NCBI GenBank assembly: GCA_902762785.1
Contig: CACWPL010000014.1
Coordinates: forward strand, 1-63,975
Length of the DNA stretch: 63,975 nucleotides
Origin: an uncultured Ruminococcus sp.
Lineage (GTDB): Bacteria > Bacillota > Clostridia > Oscillospirales > Ruminococcaceae
Direction: 5' to 3'
Position numbers and translations under genes: made by a program
Notes under the pieces: model-generated
What the model saw: only the letters and a program-made list of their open reading frames with translations
What the model was told of the DNA's origin: nothing
Databases searched by the model: none
Shown here: positions 4,978-16,578 of the stretch, one piece after another
Layout of the letters: every line of letters begins with the position of its first letter
Position numbering within the stretch: the first letter of the stretch is position 1

Positions 4978-6312
4978 ATGTCCGAGATCTATGATACCTT
5001 CGCTTCGCTCTGTGCTGCGGTCATCCGCATCGCGGAGGACGCCTTCCGGCAGGAGACGGCGTCCGCCGTGCCGATGCTCTTTACGGAAGACGGCACCGTC
5101 CGGCAGCTCACGGAGGAGACGATCGATCGGGCGCTCCTTGACGCCCTCGATGCCCATATCGCCACGCTCACGCAGCGCCGGGACGGTCTGGCGATGATCG
5201 TCCTCCTCGAGCTGCTCGACTCGGCGCTCGCGGCGCTCCTTCGCCGCAAGGAGCGGGAGTTCCAGCAGATGCATTACTGCGTCGTCCTCAACCAGAACCG
5301 CGAGGCGACCGGGATCGGGCTCCTGCCGCGCTGCGGATGCATCTGGGAGCGCAAGCACCGGCTCTCCCACAGCTATGACCATTTGGACAATTTCCTGCAC
5401 TATTTTCTCCTGCTCGAGAACGCCATCCTCGGCGAGCTCATCGACATCCACTATTTCCTCAGCGCGGAGACGTTCCCACATTTCCGCGAGAACAACGGCC
5501 TGCGCATCGCCGCCACCCCGCTCCGCTTAGCGCCCCATTATGTCTACGACTATTTCGAGGAGGACAGCATCGCTCGCTTCCGGATCGTCCACGACCCGCA
5601 CCATGCAGAGGCAGACGATGCCCAGATCTGGGAGAAGATCTGCCAAGCAGCAGCCGCACAGACGGACATCATCGTCTTCCCCGAGATGGTCGGCACGCCA
5701 CAGACTCCTGCGTCCATCGCCGCGCGTCTGCGTGCGCTCGATCCCAAGGAGCGGCAGCAGTTCCCCGGTATGACGATCCTGCCGTCCTATTTCCAGAACG
5801 GCCAGAACACCGCCGTCATCCTCGACCGCGAGGGACGCGTCATCTGCCGTCAGACCAAACAAAACCCTTTCCGCAAGGAGAAGGACGGCCAGCAATACCT
5901 TGAGACCATCAAGATCGACCGCGTCGTCAACATCTTCCACTACGAGGGGATCGGCCACTTCGCCGTGCTCATCTGCAAGGACATGCTGACCACGCACTAC
6001 CTCGAGCAGATCATGCGCTGCTTCAAGCTCACGCTCCTCTTCGTGCCGTCCAATTCCACCGGCTCCTACGACTTCCGGCAGTCCTTCGACGTCTGCGCGC
6101 ACGATGACTGCAATGTCGTCTGGATCAACACCTGCGCCGCGCTCGTCCCCGGCAAGGAGGAGAATTTCGAGAACATCGGCCACGTCCGCAAGCGGATCGG
6201 GCGGCGCGATGACGATTCTCAGCGGCTCACCAAAATGCCGATCTGTCCCGGCGCTTTTCAGGGCGAATGTGCCGGAGACTGCCTATTTTTCGAGACCATC
6301 AAGGGGGTATAG
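4978..6312 (+). CDS. Carbon-nitrogen hydrolase (nitrilase fold) with unknown N-terminal helical domain
   Basis: 444 aa, with ATG at 4978 placed 5 bases behind GGAGGTG. Residues about 176-400 form a nitrilase-superfamily domain with a plausible Glu-Lys-Cys triad: Glu236 in IIVFPEM, Lys294 in CRQTKQNPF, Cys333 in AVLICKDM. The family hydrolyses or condenses amide/nitrile bonds. The first ~175 residues are helical, contain LLELLDSALAALLRRKERE and the Cys pair PRCGCIW, and match no domain I recognise. No signal peptide, so cytoplasmic. The NUDIX gene starts 2 bases after the stop, so the two are coupled. The substrate is unknown; NAD- or ADP-ribose-related amide chemistry is a guess from the neighbour. 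Confidence 0.7.
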   Translation: MSEIYDTFASLCAAVIRIAEDAFRQETASAVPMLFTEDGTVRQLTEETIDRALLDALDAHIATLTQRRDGLAMIVLLELLDSALAALLRRKEREFQQMHYCVVLNQNREATGIGLLPRCGCIWERKHRLSHSYDHLDNFLHYFLLLENAILGELIDIHYFLSAETFPHFRENNGLRIAATPLRLAPHYVYDYFEEDSIARFRIVHDPHHAEADDAQIWEKICQAAAAQTDIIVFPEMVGTPQTPASIAARLRALDPKERQQFPGMTILPSYFQNGQNTAVILDREGRVICRQTKQNPFRKEKDGQQYLETIKIDRVVNIFHYEGIGHFAVLICKDMLTTHYLEQIMRCFKLTLLFVPSNSTGSYDFRQSFDVCAHDDCNVVWINTCAALVPGKEENFENIGHVRKRIGRRDDDSQRLTKMPICPGAFQGECAGDCLFFETIKGV

Positions 6313-14147: not shown

Positions 14148-14870
14148 ATGATCTTTTACTTTTCCTCGACCGGGAACTGTCAGTATGTGGCCGAGCGGAT
14201 CGCGGCGGCGACCGGCGACCGTGCCGTCTCCATGCTCGACTGTCTCAAACGGAAGGCGCTGTCCTTCCCGGACTGCGAGCAGCTCGGCATCGTGGTCCCG
14301 ACCTATGCCTGGGGACTGCCGGACATCGTCGACCTGTTCCTGAAGCGCGTGCAGATCCGCGCCCGCTATGCGTTCTTTGTCGTGACCTACGGCACCACGC
14401 CCGGGAACACGCTCTATTTCGCAGAGACGTACCTGCGGCGGCGCTTCGACATCGCCTTCAGCCTCCAGATGCCGGACAACTTCACGCCCTGGTTCGACCT
14501 CTCCGCCCCCGAGAAGGTCGCCGCCCAGAATGCCGCCGCGGACGTCCGCCTCGATGCCATCATCCGCCAGATCACCGCGCGGGAGACGGGCCATTTCATG
14601 CAGCGTGTCCCGCCGCAGTTCACGAGTCTCTTCCACAAGATGGCCTACGACTGGCTCCGGCAGACGTCCAACCTCCGTGTCGAGGAGACCTGCATCGGCT
14701 GCGGGCTCTGCGCCAAGCGCTGCCCCGTCCACGCCATCGAGATGCGCGGCGGACGGCCGGTCTGGGTCAAGGACAAATGTACGATGTGCCTCGGATGCCT
14801 GCATCGCTGTCCCAAATTCGCGATCGTTTATGGCCGGTCTCCCGAGCACGGGCAATACCGACATCCGTAA
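14148..14870 (+). CDS. EFR1-type flavodoxin / 2[4Fe-4S] ferredoxin fusion
   Basis: 240 aa. The N-terminal half is flavodoxin-like, beginning MIFYFSSTGNCQYVAERIA (FMN phosphate loop SSTGN), and the C-terminus carries two 4Fe-4S motifs: Cys182-185-188-192 (CIGCGLCAKRC) and Cys211-214-217-221 (CTMCLGCLHRC). This is the EFR1 family of anaerobic electron carriers; the partner is unknown. The ribosome site AGGAGG lies 9 bases upstream. The position behind bcp suggests reducing power for redox defence. Confidence 0.88.
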   Translation: MIFYFSSTGNCQYVAERIAAATGDRAVSMLDCLKRKALSFPDCEQLGIVVPTYAWGLPDIVDLFLKRVQIRARYAFFVVTYGTTPGNTLYFAETYLRRRFDIAFSLQMPDNFTPWFDLSAPEKVAAQNAAADVRLDAIIRQITARETGHFMQRVPPQFTSLFHKMAYDWLRQTSNLRVEETCIGCGLCAKRCPVHAIEMRGGRPVWVKDKCTMCLGCLHRCPKFAIVYGRSPEHGQYRHP

Positions 14871-14896
14871 GTCCGTGCCGTATACCACAGGTATAC

Positions 14897-14925
14897 TTGA
14901 CATCTCCGCCGGCCTGTGCTATAAT
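14897..14925 (+). promoter_or_regulatory. Consensus promoter of the leader-HTH-tRNA operon
   Basis: TTGACA (14897-14902), 17 bp, TATAAT (14920-14925) with an extended TGC. It is the only promoter I see for the leader ORF, the HTH gene and the three tRNAs. Confidence 0.85.
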
Positions 14926-14980
14926 AAGACCATCAGCTCGGGGGAACGCCCCCAAAACAACGATAGAAAGGATGAGAAAG

Positions 14981-15127
14981 ATGACCACGATCAAGAACGC
15001 GCTCCGGCAGTATGTCTTTTTTGCACAGCAGTTCCAGTTTCGCTTTTTTCGCCAGTGGCAAGAGAAGCGCTTTATCGTGCTGCACCCAAGGCATACACGC
15101 GTTCGTTCGGCTCGCCCCATCGGGTGA
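14981..15127 (+). CDS. Phe/Gln/Trp-rich leader peptide, 48 aa
   Basis: ATG 14981 lies 8 bases behind AAAGGA. The peptide is basic and odd in composition: codons 10-27 read QYVFFAQQFQFRFFRQWQ, so 13 of 18 are Phe (6), Gln (6) or Trp (1). Five of the six Gln codons are CAG. A rho-independent terminator begins 46 bases after the stop, and the next RNA genes are tRNA-Trp(CCA), tRNA-Phe(GAA) and tRNA-Gln(CTG), the tRNAs that read those codons. I infer a regulatory leader in which ribosome stalling reports on charging of these tRNAs. The alternative, a small membrane-active peptide or toxin, is less likely because no antitoxin or hydrophobic helix is evident. Confidence 0.65.
   Translation: MTTIKNALRQYVFFAQQFQFRFFRQWQEKRFIVLHPRHTRVRSARPIG
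15079..15088 (+). promoter_or_regulatory. Candidate antiterminator arm
   Basis: GCTGCACCCA, inside codons 33-36 of the leader, is exactly complementary over 10 bases to TGGGTGCAGC at 15180-15189, which overlaps the 5' arm of the terminator. A ribosome held at codons 13-27 would leave this arm free to pair. Confidence 0.5.
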
Positions 15128-15172
15128 GGCCAGGTCGTGATCTGTTTTTCGGATCATCGTCGGATAGAACGG

Positions 15173-15209
15173 GACCGTCTGGGTGCAGCTGCACGCAGAC
15201 GGTCTTTTT
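15173..15209 (+). terminator. Rho-independent terminator, probable attenuator
   Basis: GACCGTCTG (15173-15181) pairs with CAGACGGTC (15196-15204), the stem extended inward by GTGCA/TGCAC, followed by TTTTT (15205-15209). It sits between the leader ORF and the HTH gene with no promoter after it, so downstream genes depend on readthrough. Confidence 0.85.
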
Positions 15210-15237
15210 ACATCTATCCGGAAAGGTGGTCCTCCCC

Positions 15238-15468
15238 ATGACGACAGTCGTCCCCATGATCGACATGACCGCGACCGGCGCGAACATCCGCGCGCTGATC
15301 CGCTCCAAAGGCCTCAGAGTCACAGATGTACAGCATATCTGCGGCTTCAACACGCCGCAGGCCATCTTCAAATGGATGCGCGGCGACGCGCTCCCCTCGA
15401 TCGACAACCTCGTGATCCTCGCGCATGTGCTCGAGGTCACGGTCGACGAGATCCTCGTCCTCCGCTGA
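15238..15468 (+). CDS. Small XRE-like helix-turn-helix protein
   Basis: 76 aa. Nearly the whole protein is a Cro/C1-type HTH: GANIRALIRSKGLRVTDVQ, then GFNTPQAIFKWMRGDALPS (recognition helix) and IDNLVILAHVLEVTVDEIL. It lacks a second domain. GAAAGGTGG precedes ATG 15238. Only 28 bases separate it from the terminator, and tRNA-Trp starts 21 bases after its stop, so it appears to be transcribed with the tRNAs under control of the attenuator. Its target is unknown; autoregulation or control of the tRNA operon is possible. Confidence 0.8.
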   Translation: MTTVVPMIDMTATGANIRALIRSKGLRVTDVQHICGFNTPQAIFKWMRGDALPSIDNLVILAHVLEVTVDEILVLR

Positions 15469-15489
15469 CGCCGCGTCGGGAGGACGCAT

Positions 15490-15563
15490 AGGAGGATCGT
15501 CCAATGGAAGGACAGCGGTCTCCAACACCGCCGATCACAGTTCGACCCTGTGTCCTCCTGCCA
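15490..15563 (+). tRNA. tRNA-Trp (CCA)
   Basis: Acceptor AGGAGGA/TCCTCCT, anticodon stem-loop GCGGT-CTCCAAC-ACCGC with anticodon CCA, T arm CACAG-TTCGACC-CTGTG, discriminator G, CCA encoded. Confidence 0.95.
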
Positions 15564-15566
15564 AAT

Positions 15567-15642
15567 GCCTCCGTAGCTCAGCCGGTAGAGCGCAGGTCTG
15601 AAGAGCCTGGCGCCGCAAGTTCGACCCTTGCCGGAGGCACCA
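15567..15642 (+). tRNA. tRNA-Phe (GAA)
   Basis: Acceptor GCCTCCG/CGGAGGC, anticodon arm CAGGT-CTGAAGA-GCCTG with anticodon GAA, T arm GCAAG-TTCGACC-CTTGC, discriminator A, CCA encoded. It starts 3 bases after tRNA-Trp. Confidence 0.95.
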
Positions 15643-15643
15643 C

Positions 15644-15717
15644 TTCCGCTTCGTCTAATGGTAGGACGTCTGCTTCTGACGCAGATGATGGGAGTTCGAC
15701 TCTCTCAGCGGGAACCA
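15644..15717 (+). tRNA. tRNA-Gln (CTG)
   Basis: Acceptor TTCCGCT/AGCGGGA, anticodon arm TCTGC-TTCTGAC-GCAGA with anticodon CTG (reads CAG), discriminator A, CCA encoded. It directly follows tRNA-Phe. Confidence 0.93.
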
Positions 15718-15721
15718 ACAG

Positions 15722-15761
15722 AAAAACCACGACGCCCCGGACATGTGCCGGGGCGCCGTGG
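15722..15761 (-). terminator. Strong shared terminator
   Basis: CCACGACGCCCCGG (15727-15740) pairs with CCGGGGCGCCGTGG (15748-15761). The A5 at 15722-15726 makes it a minus-strand terminator for the LPXTG-like protein gene; on the plus strand the stem alone may end the tRNA transcript. Confidence 0.75.
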
Positions 15762-15821
15762 CTGAAGATCATGCACGAAGATGCAATGATATTGTCGTCA
15801 TTTTGGGGAAACAAGGTCCGC

Positions 15822-16406
15822 TCAGGACTTCTTCTTGAGGGTGAAGGCAGCGGCTGCGCCTGCGGTCGCCACACCTGCAAGGAGGAGCGCCGGGAAGCTG
15901 TCGCCGGTCTTGGGGGAGTCAGCGGCGTTCTTGTTGCCGGACTTGGCAGCCTTGGTGGTCGTCGCGGCGGCCTTGGTGGTGCCGGTGGTAGCGGAAGCGG
16001 CGGCGGCATTGGTAGCGGCTGCGGCCTTCGTGGTCGCTGCAGCCATCGTGGTCGCTACGGGCTTCGTGGTCACTGCGGTCTTCGTGGTCGCTGCGGTCGC
16101 AGCAGACGTGGTGGGGGCAGCAGTGGTCCCTACCTGTGTAGTAGTCCCTACCTGTGCGGTGGTCTCGACCTGTGCGGTCGTCTCGACCTGTGCGGTGGTC
16201 TCGACCTGTGCGGTGGTCTCGACCTGTGCGGTCGTCTCTACCTGTGCAGTGGTCTCGATCAGGTCAGGCACCTCATCGAACACAGTAACGGCGGACGTCT
16301 CGTCGAGGATGGCGTCGGCCTCCTCGCCGCGCGCGGAAACAGTGCCTGCCATCGCGATCGAAGCGGTCAGGAGGATGGCGGCGATGAACGAAACAGTCTT
16401 TTTCAT
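15822..16406 (-). CDS. Cell-wall-anchored repeat protein with sortase-type signal
   Basis: 194 aa. The start is ATG 16406 behind AGGGAGATC; the frame upstream is open but would run through the promoter. It has a signal peptide (MKKTVSFIAAILLTASIAMA), a Glu/Asp-containing segment, six to eight VETTAQ/VGTTTQ hexapeptides (about 50-100), an Ala/Thr/Lys-rich spacer, and at the end SPKTGDS, a hydrophobic helix LLLAGVATAGAAAAFTL and KKKS. That is the layout of an LPXTG-type sorting signal with SPKTG as the variant motif. No enzymatic domain, so probably a surface stalk or spacer protein. Its promoter resembles that of the 7181-8122 lipoprotein. Confidence 0.8.
   Translation of the reverse strand: MKKTVSFIAAILLTASIAMAGTVSARGEEADAILDETSAVTVFDEVPDLIETTAQVETTAQVETTAQVETTAQVETTAQVETTAQVGTTTQVGTTAAPTTSAATAATTKTAVTTKPVATTMAAATTKAAAATNAAAASATTGTTKAAATTTKAAKSGNKNAADSPKTGDSFPALLLAGVATAGAAAAFTLKKKS
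16131..16254 (-). repeat. Tandem 18-bp units
   Basis: About six copies of GTGGTCTCGACCTGTGCG (plus-strand view), encoding VETTAQ, in the sortase-type protein gene. Confidence 0.85.
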
Positions 16407-16484
16407 GATAATGATCTCCCTTTCAATGTGTAGCTTATCCATTTCCTTCGTGTCAATGATGTCTATCACCCATGCTGTATCTCT

Positions 16485-16513
16485 ATGATACCACAAACGC
16501 TCACATAATTCAA
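16485..16513 (-). promoter_or_regulatory. Promoter of the sortase-type protein gene
   Basis: Minus strand: TTGAAT (16513-16508), 17 bp, TATCAT (16490-16485). The bases GTGGTATCATAGAGATACAG closely match those around the 8195-8223 promoter. Confidence 0.65.
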
Positions 16514-16530
16514 GTGTCGATCTTGCCACG

Positions 16531-16578
16531 ATTTGTCGTATAAGCAACAGATCGTGGCGCATTTGTCGTTTAAGCTAC
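16531..16578. repeat. Direct repeat between divergent promoters
   Basis: ATTTGTCGTATAAGCAAC (16531-16548) and ATTTGTCGTTTAAGCTAC (16561-16578), 30 bp apart, about three helical turns. They lie between the divergent 16406 and 16689 genes and could be an operator. Confidence 0.6.

Follow-up and report, generated by a model that had tools for sequence, protein, structure and literature searches.

A putative leader-peptide attenuator ahead of accessory tRNA genes in an uncultured Ruminococcus, with codons that match the tRNAs it precedes

Introduction

Why should a short open reading frame (ORF) crowded with phenylalanine, glutamine and tryptophan codons stand just ahead of a transcription terminator, a small regulatory gene and exactly those tRNA genes whose products read these codons? 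The question is raised by a locus in a 63,975-nt stretch of contig CACWPL010000014.1 from an uncultured Ruminococcus sp.; this whole stretch is referred to here as the window. In the trp, his and phe attenuators, a short ORF with regulatory codons is combined with mutually exclusive antiterminator and terminator structures. A preliminary description of the locus, drawn from the letters alone, had proposed attenuation of this kind with tRNAs as the output, and the comparison with relatives reported here supports that reading, in that leader codons track the arrays and antiterminator complementarity is found in most units. We consider it very probable that an accessory tRNA operon is attenuated here and functions as a self-sensing tRNA reserve. 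The locus itself is described from the sequence of the window only, and coordinates are window positions.

Results

The operon would be transcribed from a sigma-70-type promoter on the plus strand (14897-14925; TTGACA-17-TATAAT with TG before the -10 box), which has 12 of 12 consensus bases and is the one consensus promoter returned by a promoter scan of 14401-16000, against 0.3 in shuffles. On the same strand follows a leader ORF of 48 codons (14981-15127; MTTIKNALRQYVFFAQQFQFRFFRQWQEKRFIVLHPRHTRVRSARPIG) with the Shine-Dalgarno sequence AAAGGATG. Thirteen of the 18 positions in its codon cluster (leader codons 10-27, 15008-15061) are Phe, Gln or Trp, the top 18-codon count among 1542 open stretches in the six frames of the window, where the runner-up reaches 10 in a low-complexity frame. 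Behind the leader lies a rho-independent terminator (15173-15209, plus strand; GACCGTCTGGGTGCAGCTGCACGCAGACGGTC-TTTTT, stem as cut -26.5 kcal/mol). A ten-base part of its 5' arm and loop (arm 3, 15180-15189) perfectly matches a putative antiterminator arm in the leader (arm 2, 15079-15088; GCTGCACCCA). The plus strand continues with a gene for a 76-aa Cro/CI-type helix-turn-helix (HTH) protein (15238-15468; PF01381, E 4.4e-8) and with tRNA-Trp(CCA) (15490-15563), tRNA-Phe(GAA) (15567-15642) and tRNA-Gln(CTG) (15644-15717), as called by default ARAGORN and Rfam. The same promoter scan found no consensus match between the terminator and the tRNAs. The promoter, leader and codon cluster, the strong terminator, the HTH gene without a promoter of its own, the three tRNAs and the ten-base match had all been pointed out in the preliminary description and were confirmed. 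A simple terminator scan of 14401-16000 did not list the terminator, presumably because it permits loops of at most 8. A further tRNA-Lys(CTT), called in the array at relaxed settings, was rejected as false, being listed by neither default ARAGORN nor Rfam.

Relatives were collected with the HTH protein as bait, therefore the leader played no part in the search. A close copy (at least 65% identity) was present in 5 of 38 genus genomes and relatives at E 1e-12 in 17 of 394 order genomes drawn from a larger group, own genome included in both counts. The GTDB species genomes held at least 572 relatives, from which 80 loci were kept, and IMG/VR gave 27 loci; 34 plasmid and seven phage records carried relatives, two and four of which were taken into the analysis. 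The resulting working set of 138 loci includes 26 of the 27 viral loci and two loci from the Ruminococcus albus 7 plasmid pRUMAL01, and leaves out the viral locus L203 and the weak genus matches L019-L040; three locus pairs are identical across the tested region. A tRNA was called on the same strand within -900 to +2500 bases at 83 of the 138 loci. With no tRNA in range at the other 55, the HTH protein was rejected as a general marker of tRNA arrays; the Lactobacillus salivarius plasmid locus L092, for example, has no tRNA array by its HTH gene.

Leaders at the 83 tRNA-bearing loci were selected solely on their promoter and Shine-Dalgarno scores, and the promoters ahead of relatives' leaders scored high. 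This gave 69 units with a chosen leader and two or more tRNAs, forming 16 clusters at 50% identity, and 45 of these units belong to two related groups (31 and 14). The leader-HTH-tRNA layout recurs in gut bacteria, on a plasmid and in sequences filed as phage. Units also stand on the contigs of L189 (55 kb), L190 (253 kb), L177 and L181, which are viral by filing only. Two R. flavefaciens strains (L113/L134 and L114/L141) each carry a Gln/Cys/Phe-type and a Tyr/Glu/His/Ser-type unit about 7-9 kb apart, with complementary arrays.

Leader codons were compared with array tRNAs in a permutation test, in which each cluster was represented by its most tRNA-rich unit and the leader was scored against its own and against swapped arrays. 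The match to the own array was 0.429 against 0.300 (standard deviation 0.025) for swapped arrays, a value reached by none of 20,000 permutations of the 16 clusters. This first count still included the false tRNA-Lys(CTT) of the window; with stricter tRNA calls, which omit it, the values were 0.415 and 0.285, and without L094, L164 and L180, which have no leader, 0.480 and 0.325, reached in both cases by 0 of 50,000 permutations. The own array ranked first in six of the 16 clusters and fifth or worse in six. The preliminary description had proposed checking leader codon content against tRNA identity in relatives, and the outcome of this check is positive across the 16 clusters. No relative was encountered that carried the tRNAs behind a real leader without enrichment; the arrays of L094 and L164 have no leader and sit behind RtcB.

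A presence count over leader codons 5-30 points the same way; it covers the 63 units whose arrays have three or more tRNAs under strict calling. At least one matching leader codon was found for 238 of 241 array amino acids, the exceptions being Pro in L179, where the tRNA is doubtful, and Tyr in L155 and L177. Trp codons occurred in the leaders of all ten arrays with tRNA-Trp and in two of 53 without (L101, where the contig ends, and L104). For Cys the figures were 19/19 and 8/44, for His 20/20 and 10/43. At least one Gln codon was present in 27/27 leaders with tRNA-Gln and 7/36 without, and at least two in 27/27 and 0/36. The correspondence extends to synonymous codons: the ratio of AGY to TCN serine codons was 75:14 in leaders of arrays with Ser(GCT) only and 12:16 in those with Ser(TGA) (p 3.7e-5, with units that are not independent). 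Across clusters, then, predicted leader codons track array identity, for serine down to the anticodon class.

Individual relatives illustrate the same correspondence. L072 and L073 have similar leaders, but only L073 combines a tRNA-Cys in the array with added Cys codons, two of them within its cluster and a third where the cluster ends; L181 has one Cys codon and likewise a tRNA-Cys. The leader core of L157, KGLEYGKELYELQGKLYG, precedes an array of Glu, Gly, Glu, Lys, Lys, Leu, Leu and Tyr tRNAs. In L169 (Erysipelotrichaceae) the leader contains Tyr, Ser(TCA), Gln, Glu, His, Asp, Cys and Ile codons (one ATA, one ATC), and the array reads Gln, His, Gln, Ser(TGA), Tyr, Ile(TAT), Cys, Glu, with a further Rfam tRNA at 5823-5895 of that locus that appears by eye to be Asp(GTC). 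Plasmid pRUMAL01 holds three leader-tRNA units inside 3.4 kb: a Leu/Ser/Glu-rich leader followed by Leu, Leu and Glu tRNAs, an Asp/Gln/Cys/Phe/Trp/Ser leader followed by Asp, Gln, Cys, Phe, Gln and Trp tRNAs, and a unit lacking the HTH gene, in which the Ser/Tyr-rich leader MKNTVFAFSYSYSYSSVVQK precedes Tyr and four Ser tRNAs and which has, by eye, its own promoter and terminator. L098 contains an HTH-less Ser/Tyr unit of the same kind. On the plasmid, a degenerate tRNA-like stretch (L091:4440-4560), perhaps a decaying array member, was seen by eye behind the first terminator and ahead of the Leu tRNAs.

The potential of the leader to pair with the terminator was assessed in 71 units by comparing the best leader match to the terminator 5' arm and loop with that of 200 shuffled leaders. 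Loci with no leader in place (L094, L164, L165, L180 and L196) were excluded from the pairing, folding and codon-presence counts, and for G035C124 and pRUMAL_u2 the automatic search gave no terminator. In 57 of the 71 units the true pairing came within the top 10 of 200 and so outdid 95% of shuffles; its site usually fell right behind the codon cluster, at about codons 28-36. Terminator sequences vary by group (including CCGTCTGTGTGCAG, CCGCTTGTCTTGA and GACCATCTGTACACAG), while mostly remaining complementary to the leader of the same unit. Among 19 hand-picked units, leaders paired with their own terminator at -18.8 kcal/mol and with swapped ones at -14.3 (0 of 20,000 permutations); the own terminator ranked first in only six of 19 because related terminators resemble each other. 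In 13 distinct rows of one leader group (group a), 95% of cells pair, against 92% with shuffled partners (reached in 6 of 2000) and 6-64% when slid, and four two-sided changes were counted; this pair count leaves out G026C301, G023C24 and L106. By computation, then, most units allow the terminator 5' arm to pair with leader sequence that closely follows the codon cluster.

The leader RNA of the window (14930-15220) folds 5.7 standard deviations below shuffles. To follow ribosome positions, we modelled 67 units in the state before the terminator 3' arm exists, keeping the RNA upstream of the ribosome (L118, L152, L161 and L171 were left out, as the terminator or pairing picked looked wrong). 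Pairing of arm 2 with arm 3 averaged 0.13 in untranslated RNA (median 0.00), 0.41-0.47 with a ribosome stalled at codons 10-16, 0.00 when the ribosome covered arm 2, and 0.28 (median 0.14) when it stood at the stop codon. A first equilibrium model, from which all RNA upstream of the ribosome was deleted, gave 0.13 untranslated, about 0.70 stalled and 0.00 at the stop. It was not relied on, since the zero at the stop arises by construction, and the model with upstream RNA, which shows a weaker contrast, is used instead. The folding logic would fit a stall sensor in many units, and in the window the timing would have to be kinetic.

Fourteen R. flavefaciens-type leaders (group b) differ pairwise by 316 synonymous and 147 non-synonymous codon changes (pS 0.257, pN 0.023, pN/pS about 0.09), a pattern of purifying selection as expected for a translated peptide. 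No coding-selection signal was found in eight group-a leaders (7 synonymous and 23 non-synonymous differences; pS 0.016, pN 0.010). At seven loci with a leader and an HTH gene no tRNA was found. In four of these the codon cluster is thin by residue sets that were picked after the leaders had been viewed: 0.50 each in L097, L102 and L103 against a group-a minimum of 0.55 and mean of 0.71 (25 units), and 0.45 in L123 against a group-b minimum of 0.65 and mean of 0.85 (34 units). This suggests that the cluster may decay once the tRNAs are lost; as it holds for only 4 of 7 loci, thinning as a rule for tRNA-less loci was dropped as a main argument. L097 and L103 retain an RNA ligase behind the HTH gene. 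Upstream in L097, an ORF on the opposite strand looks by eye like a cysteine synthase gene. An Rfam search of these seven loci gave two thiamine pyrophosphate riboswitches and nothing else.

The tRNAs of the window locus are accessory, as the genome has another tRNA-Trp (contig C2), another tRNA-Phe (C4) and a very different tRNA-Gln(CTG) (C23). The array tRNA-Phe has G37 and the C4 copy A37. Among relatives, G37 was present in 24 of 25 array tRNA-Phe and in none of four host copies, the host set being a sample of high-scoring tRNAs. U33 is near-universal in tRNAs. C33 was found in 19 of 289 array tRNAs and in 1 of 98 from the same biased host set, the host case being doubtful (p 0.03). The C33 tRNAs belong to several amino-acid families and lie in L076, L104, L108, L109, L110, L113, L117, L118, L131, L152, L154, L157, L169, L189 and L190.

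Genes for RNA repair accompany the HTH gene at other loci. An RNA ligase stands on the same strand 22-208 bases behind the array or HTH gene at 13 of 138 loci, 80-100% identical to that of L108. The L108 ligase, which we take to be of the Rnl5 type, matches PF09414 and PF21189 and, at E 7.5e-49, the Naegleria gruberi RNA ligase (PDB 5cot); against TIGR02306 it scores 140 bits, below the cut-off of 151. In a C-terminal motif search, RtcB ended 25-217 bases before the HTH gene in 12 of 138 loci, and all five checked by Pfam were PF01139. RtcB lies directly upstream of this small HTH gene in L077, L078, L093, L094, L160, L164, L168, L172, L174, L192, L193 and L194; in L094 and L164 the pair is followed by tRNAs with no leader. 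RlaP, which Pfam names as an RNA-repair family, lies behind the array in L074 (E 1.7e-88); in L116 a macro-domain protein and an ADP-ribosylglycohydrolase come next. The RNA-repair company of the HTH gene is the strongest hint as to what the system may be for.

A perfect inverted repeat, GTATACC-ACA-GGTATAC (14880-14896, no strand), abuts the -35 box of the window promoter and is a candidate HTH operator. It is also perfect in the phage-record locus L095, and with up to five mismatches it occurs in 49 of 73 units, abutting the best -35 box in 38 of those 49; its 16-base core has no second exact copy in the genome. The HTH protein is probably an autoregulator acting on the promoter through this palindrome.

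Several smaller features complete the locus. RNA folding predicts a short plus-strand hairpin in the 5' untranslated leader (14940-14953), and relatives show, by eye, a like shape of differing sequence before the leader. It also predicts an outer stem around the terminator (GGATAGA/TCTATCC, 15162-15168 pairing with 15213-15219, plus strand), a kind of enclosing stem also spotted by eye in relatives. Neither this outer stem nor the inverted repeat had been pointed out in the preliminary description. A strong hairpin behind the array (15725-15763) is perhaps the operon end; the scan lists it as terminator-like for the minus strand. Adjoining the operon on the minus strand, 15822-16562 encodes what by eye is a protein of surface type, which carries TTAQVE repeats and ends in an LPXTG-like sequence.

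Discussion

How would the locus work? Transcription would begin shortly downstream of the -10 box (14925) and as a rule end at the terminator. The ribosome on the leader would traverse codons that are decoded by just those tRNAs whose genes lie downstream, and if any of these tRNAs were scarce it would stall short of arm 2. The free arm 2 could then pair with the terminator 5' arm, the terminator could not form, and RNA polymerase would continue into the HTH gene and the tRNAs, replacing those that are missing; the HTH protein would feed back on the promoter via the palindrome. By comparison alone, this sensor logic is well supported; that stalling is the signal, that readthrough follows, that the HTH protein binds the palindrome and what the natural trigger would be are inferred.

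Several observations weigh against this reading. Of the other-genome loci from the order search, 15 of 19 have no tRNA by the HTH gene. Leader codons also occur without a detected tRNA, in 32 of the 63 units for Phe, 32 for Ser, 25 for Tyr, 24 for Glu, 19 for Asp and seven for Gln. As this holds for most amino acids, the presence of common ones is uninformative, and weight is placed on Trp, Cys, His and Gln and on the permutation test. The units also share kinship, with 13-16 clusters standing apart, therefore the cluster test alone is near-independent evidence. Pairing falls short of the threshold in 14 of 71 units, worst in L161 and L157 (rank 97 of 200 in the latter), and a stall at codons 19-25 opens arm 2 only partly (mean 0.24-0.29 in the 67 units). 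In the window itself, pairing of arms 2 and 3 is 0.73-0.76 in every state except with arm 2 covered (0.01). The preliminary description had conceded that a ribosome at the stop codon would leave the antiterminator arm free; this weakness stands for the window (0.76 at the stop) and is eased for most relatives by their median of 0.14. L156, L167 (0.80 each) and L173 (0.65) keep a rich leader and an HTH gene with no tRNA found, and might represent lost arrays, undetected tRNAs or another output. Finally, no RNA-repair gene lies beside the array at the window locus.

What, then, would the sensor respond to? We propose that tRNA destruction, and not amino-acid starvation, would be the natural trigger, for example through anticodon nucleases of phages, of rivals or of the cell's own defences, and that the reserve probably serves against tRNA damage. 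Cleavage is favoured because RNA-repair genes lie near the HTH gene elsewhere and because the anticodon loops appear altered. Starvation is ranked as the main rival: the same attenuator would sense uncharged tRNA, and the tRNA output would be incidental. The classical trp, his and phe leader peptides respond to charging, and a stall would look alike in both cases. However, extra tRNA genes presumably could not relieve a lack of amino acids, single leaders such as those of L157 and L169 mix five to eight unrelated amino acids, RNA ligases, RtcB and RlaP stand beside the HTH gene at other loci, and the anticodon loop of the array tRNA-Phe differs from that of host copies. We regard starvation as unlikely.

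The leader could instead encode a functional small protein, such as a partner of the HTH protein, with codons that simply follow peptide function. The purifying selection on group-b leaders would fit this, as would the retention of leader and HTH gene in L156, L167 and L173. However, the peptide varies among groups while the codon-tRNA correspondence persists, peptide function would not explain why synonymous serine codons track the anticodon class, and four of the seven tRNA-less leader-HTH loci have a thinner cluster than every unit of their group; we hold this explanation to be improbable.

A slightly poorer prospect still is codon supply, in which the array would provide tRNAs for codons that a mobile element uses often, and the leader would simply have the same codon or amino-acid usage as that element. 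Accessory phage tRNA arrays are often explained in this way, according to the accessible text of PMC10264068, and some units do lie on pRUMAL01 and on contigs filed as viral. The explanation nevertheless fails to predict dense clusters right before the antiterminator arm, or Cys codons that arrive together with tRNA-Cys between close relatives, and the leader is the densest of the 1542 stretches, density being compared within the window only. Least probable of all is chance or shared descent, with one biased ancestral leader copied along with its tRNAs: the two related groups that hold 45 of the 69 units would suit it, yet the cluster-level permutation result (0 of 50,000), the separate leader clusters of L095, L155, L157, L169 and L189, and the HTH-less leaders of pRUMAL01 and L098 all speak against it.

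The proposed tRNA operon can be set beside several known systems. It resembles the trp, his and phe attenuators in its promoter, its short codon-cluster ORF and its mutually exclusive antiterminator and terminator (here computed), and is unlike them in that its output would be the cognate tRNAs, that several amino acids are combined and that an HTH gene lies in the operon. T-box leaders, a transcription control of Firmicutes, respond to the state of a tRNA through RNA that binds the uncharged tRNA directly. The present leader would likewise read tRNA state. No T-box was found here at gathering score. Rfam gave nothing but tRNA in the window, and tRNAs only at 15 array loci.

The closest functional relative found is the Anabaena trn operon, a reserve tRNA array on a plasmid that is silent until translational stress, with the repressor TrcR and with rtcB in the same regulon (PMC10272220, in the part accessible). 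Both are accessory tRNA arrays apart from the housekeeping copies. TrcR, from a cyanobacterium, is a ribbon-helix-helix repressor, whereas the operon's own regulator here is of the HTH_3 family (a trans-acting ribbon-helix-helix protein was not searched for), and the terms "leader" and "attenuat" are absent from that paper's text. The Rtc operon comprises RNA-repair genes induced by tRNA damage, with the CARF-domain activator RtcR sensing tRNA fragments (PMC7790460, accessible part). It thus relies on fragment sensing, in contrast to the ribosome stalling proposed here, and no tRNA array is named for it in that text; RtcB lies beside the HTH gene in 12 of 138 loci by the C-terminal motif (five of the 12 checked by Pfam), but not at the window locus.

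As far as their accessible portions go, papers on phage tRNAs state that these evade anticodon nucleases, naming anticodon-loop changes (PMC10264068), and that extra phage tRNAs replace those destroyed by defence nucleases (PMC10264068, PMC11555353); tRNA cleavage by Cas13a is also described (PMC11042736). A possible likeness here is the anticodon loops of the arrays, which may be altered by the C33 (19/289 against 1/98) and Phe G37 (24/25 against 0/4) counts, in which the host set is a high-scoring sample. The term "leader" is absent from the text of PMC11555353 and of PMC10264068, and "attenuat" from that of PMC11555353. A leader-peptide-controlled tRNA operon was not found in the literature searched, which excludes most subscription journals, and such absence is no proof.

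As far as we have found, then, the predicted circuit is recurrent and apparently undescribed, a trp-type attenuator logic with tRNAs as output. We lean, if only slightly, towards a reading in which the leader acts as an OR-gate that samples each array tRNA. If an anticodon nuclease removed even one of them, a set of partly nuclease-resistant replacements would be released, accompanied in some lineages by RNA ligases that would mend cut tRNAs. The whole would be a defence or counter-defence module carried by Clostridia of the rumen and gut, by a plasmid and by phages. If this is true, the locus would form a closed loop in which the absence of a tRNA, read by the ribosome, drives its own replacement. 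The specificity of such a sensor would be readable from sequence, with leader codons naming the threatened tRNAs. It would join attenuation to tRNA damage and repair, and may offer a possible answer to the purpose of some accessory tRNA arrays.

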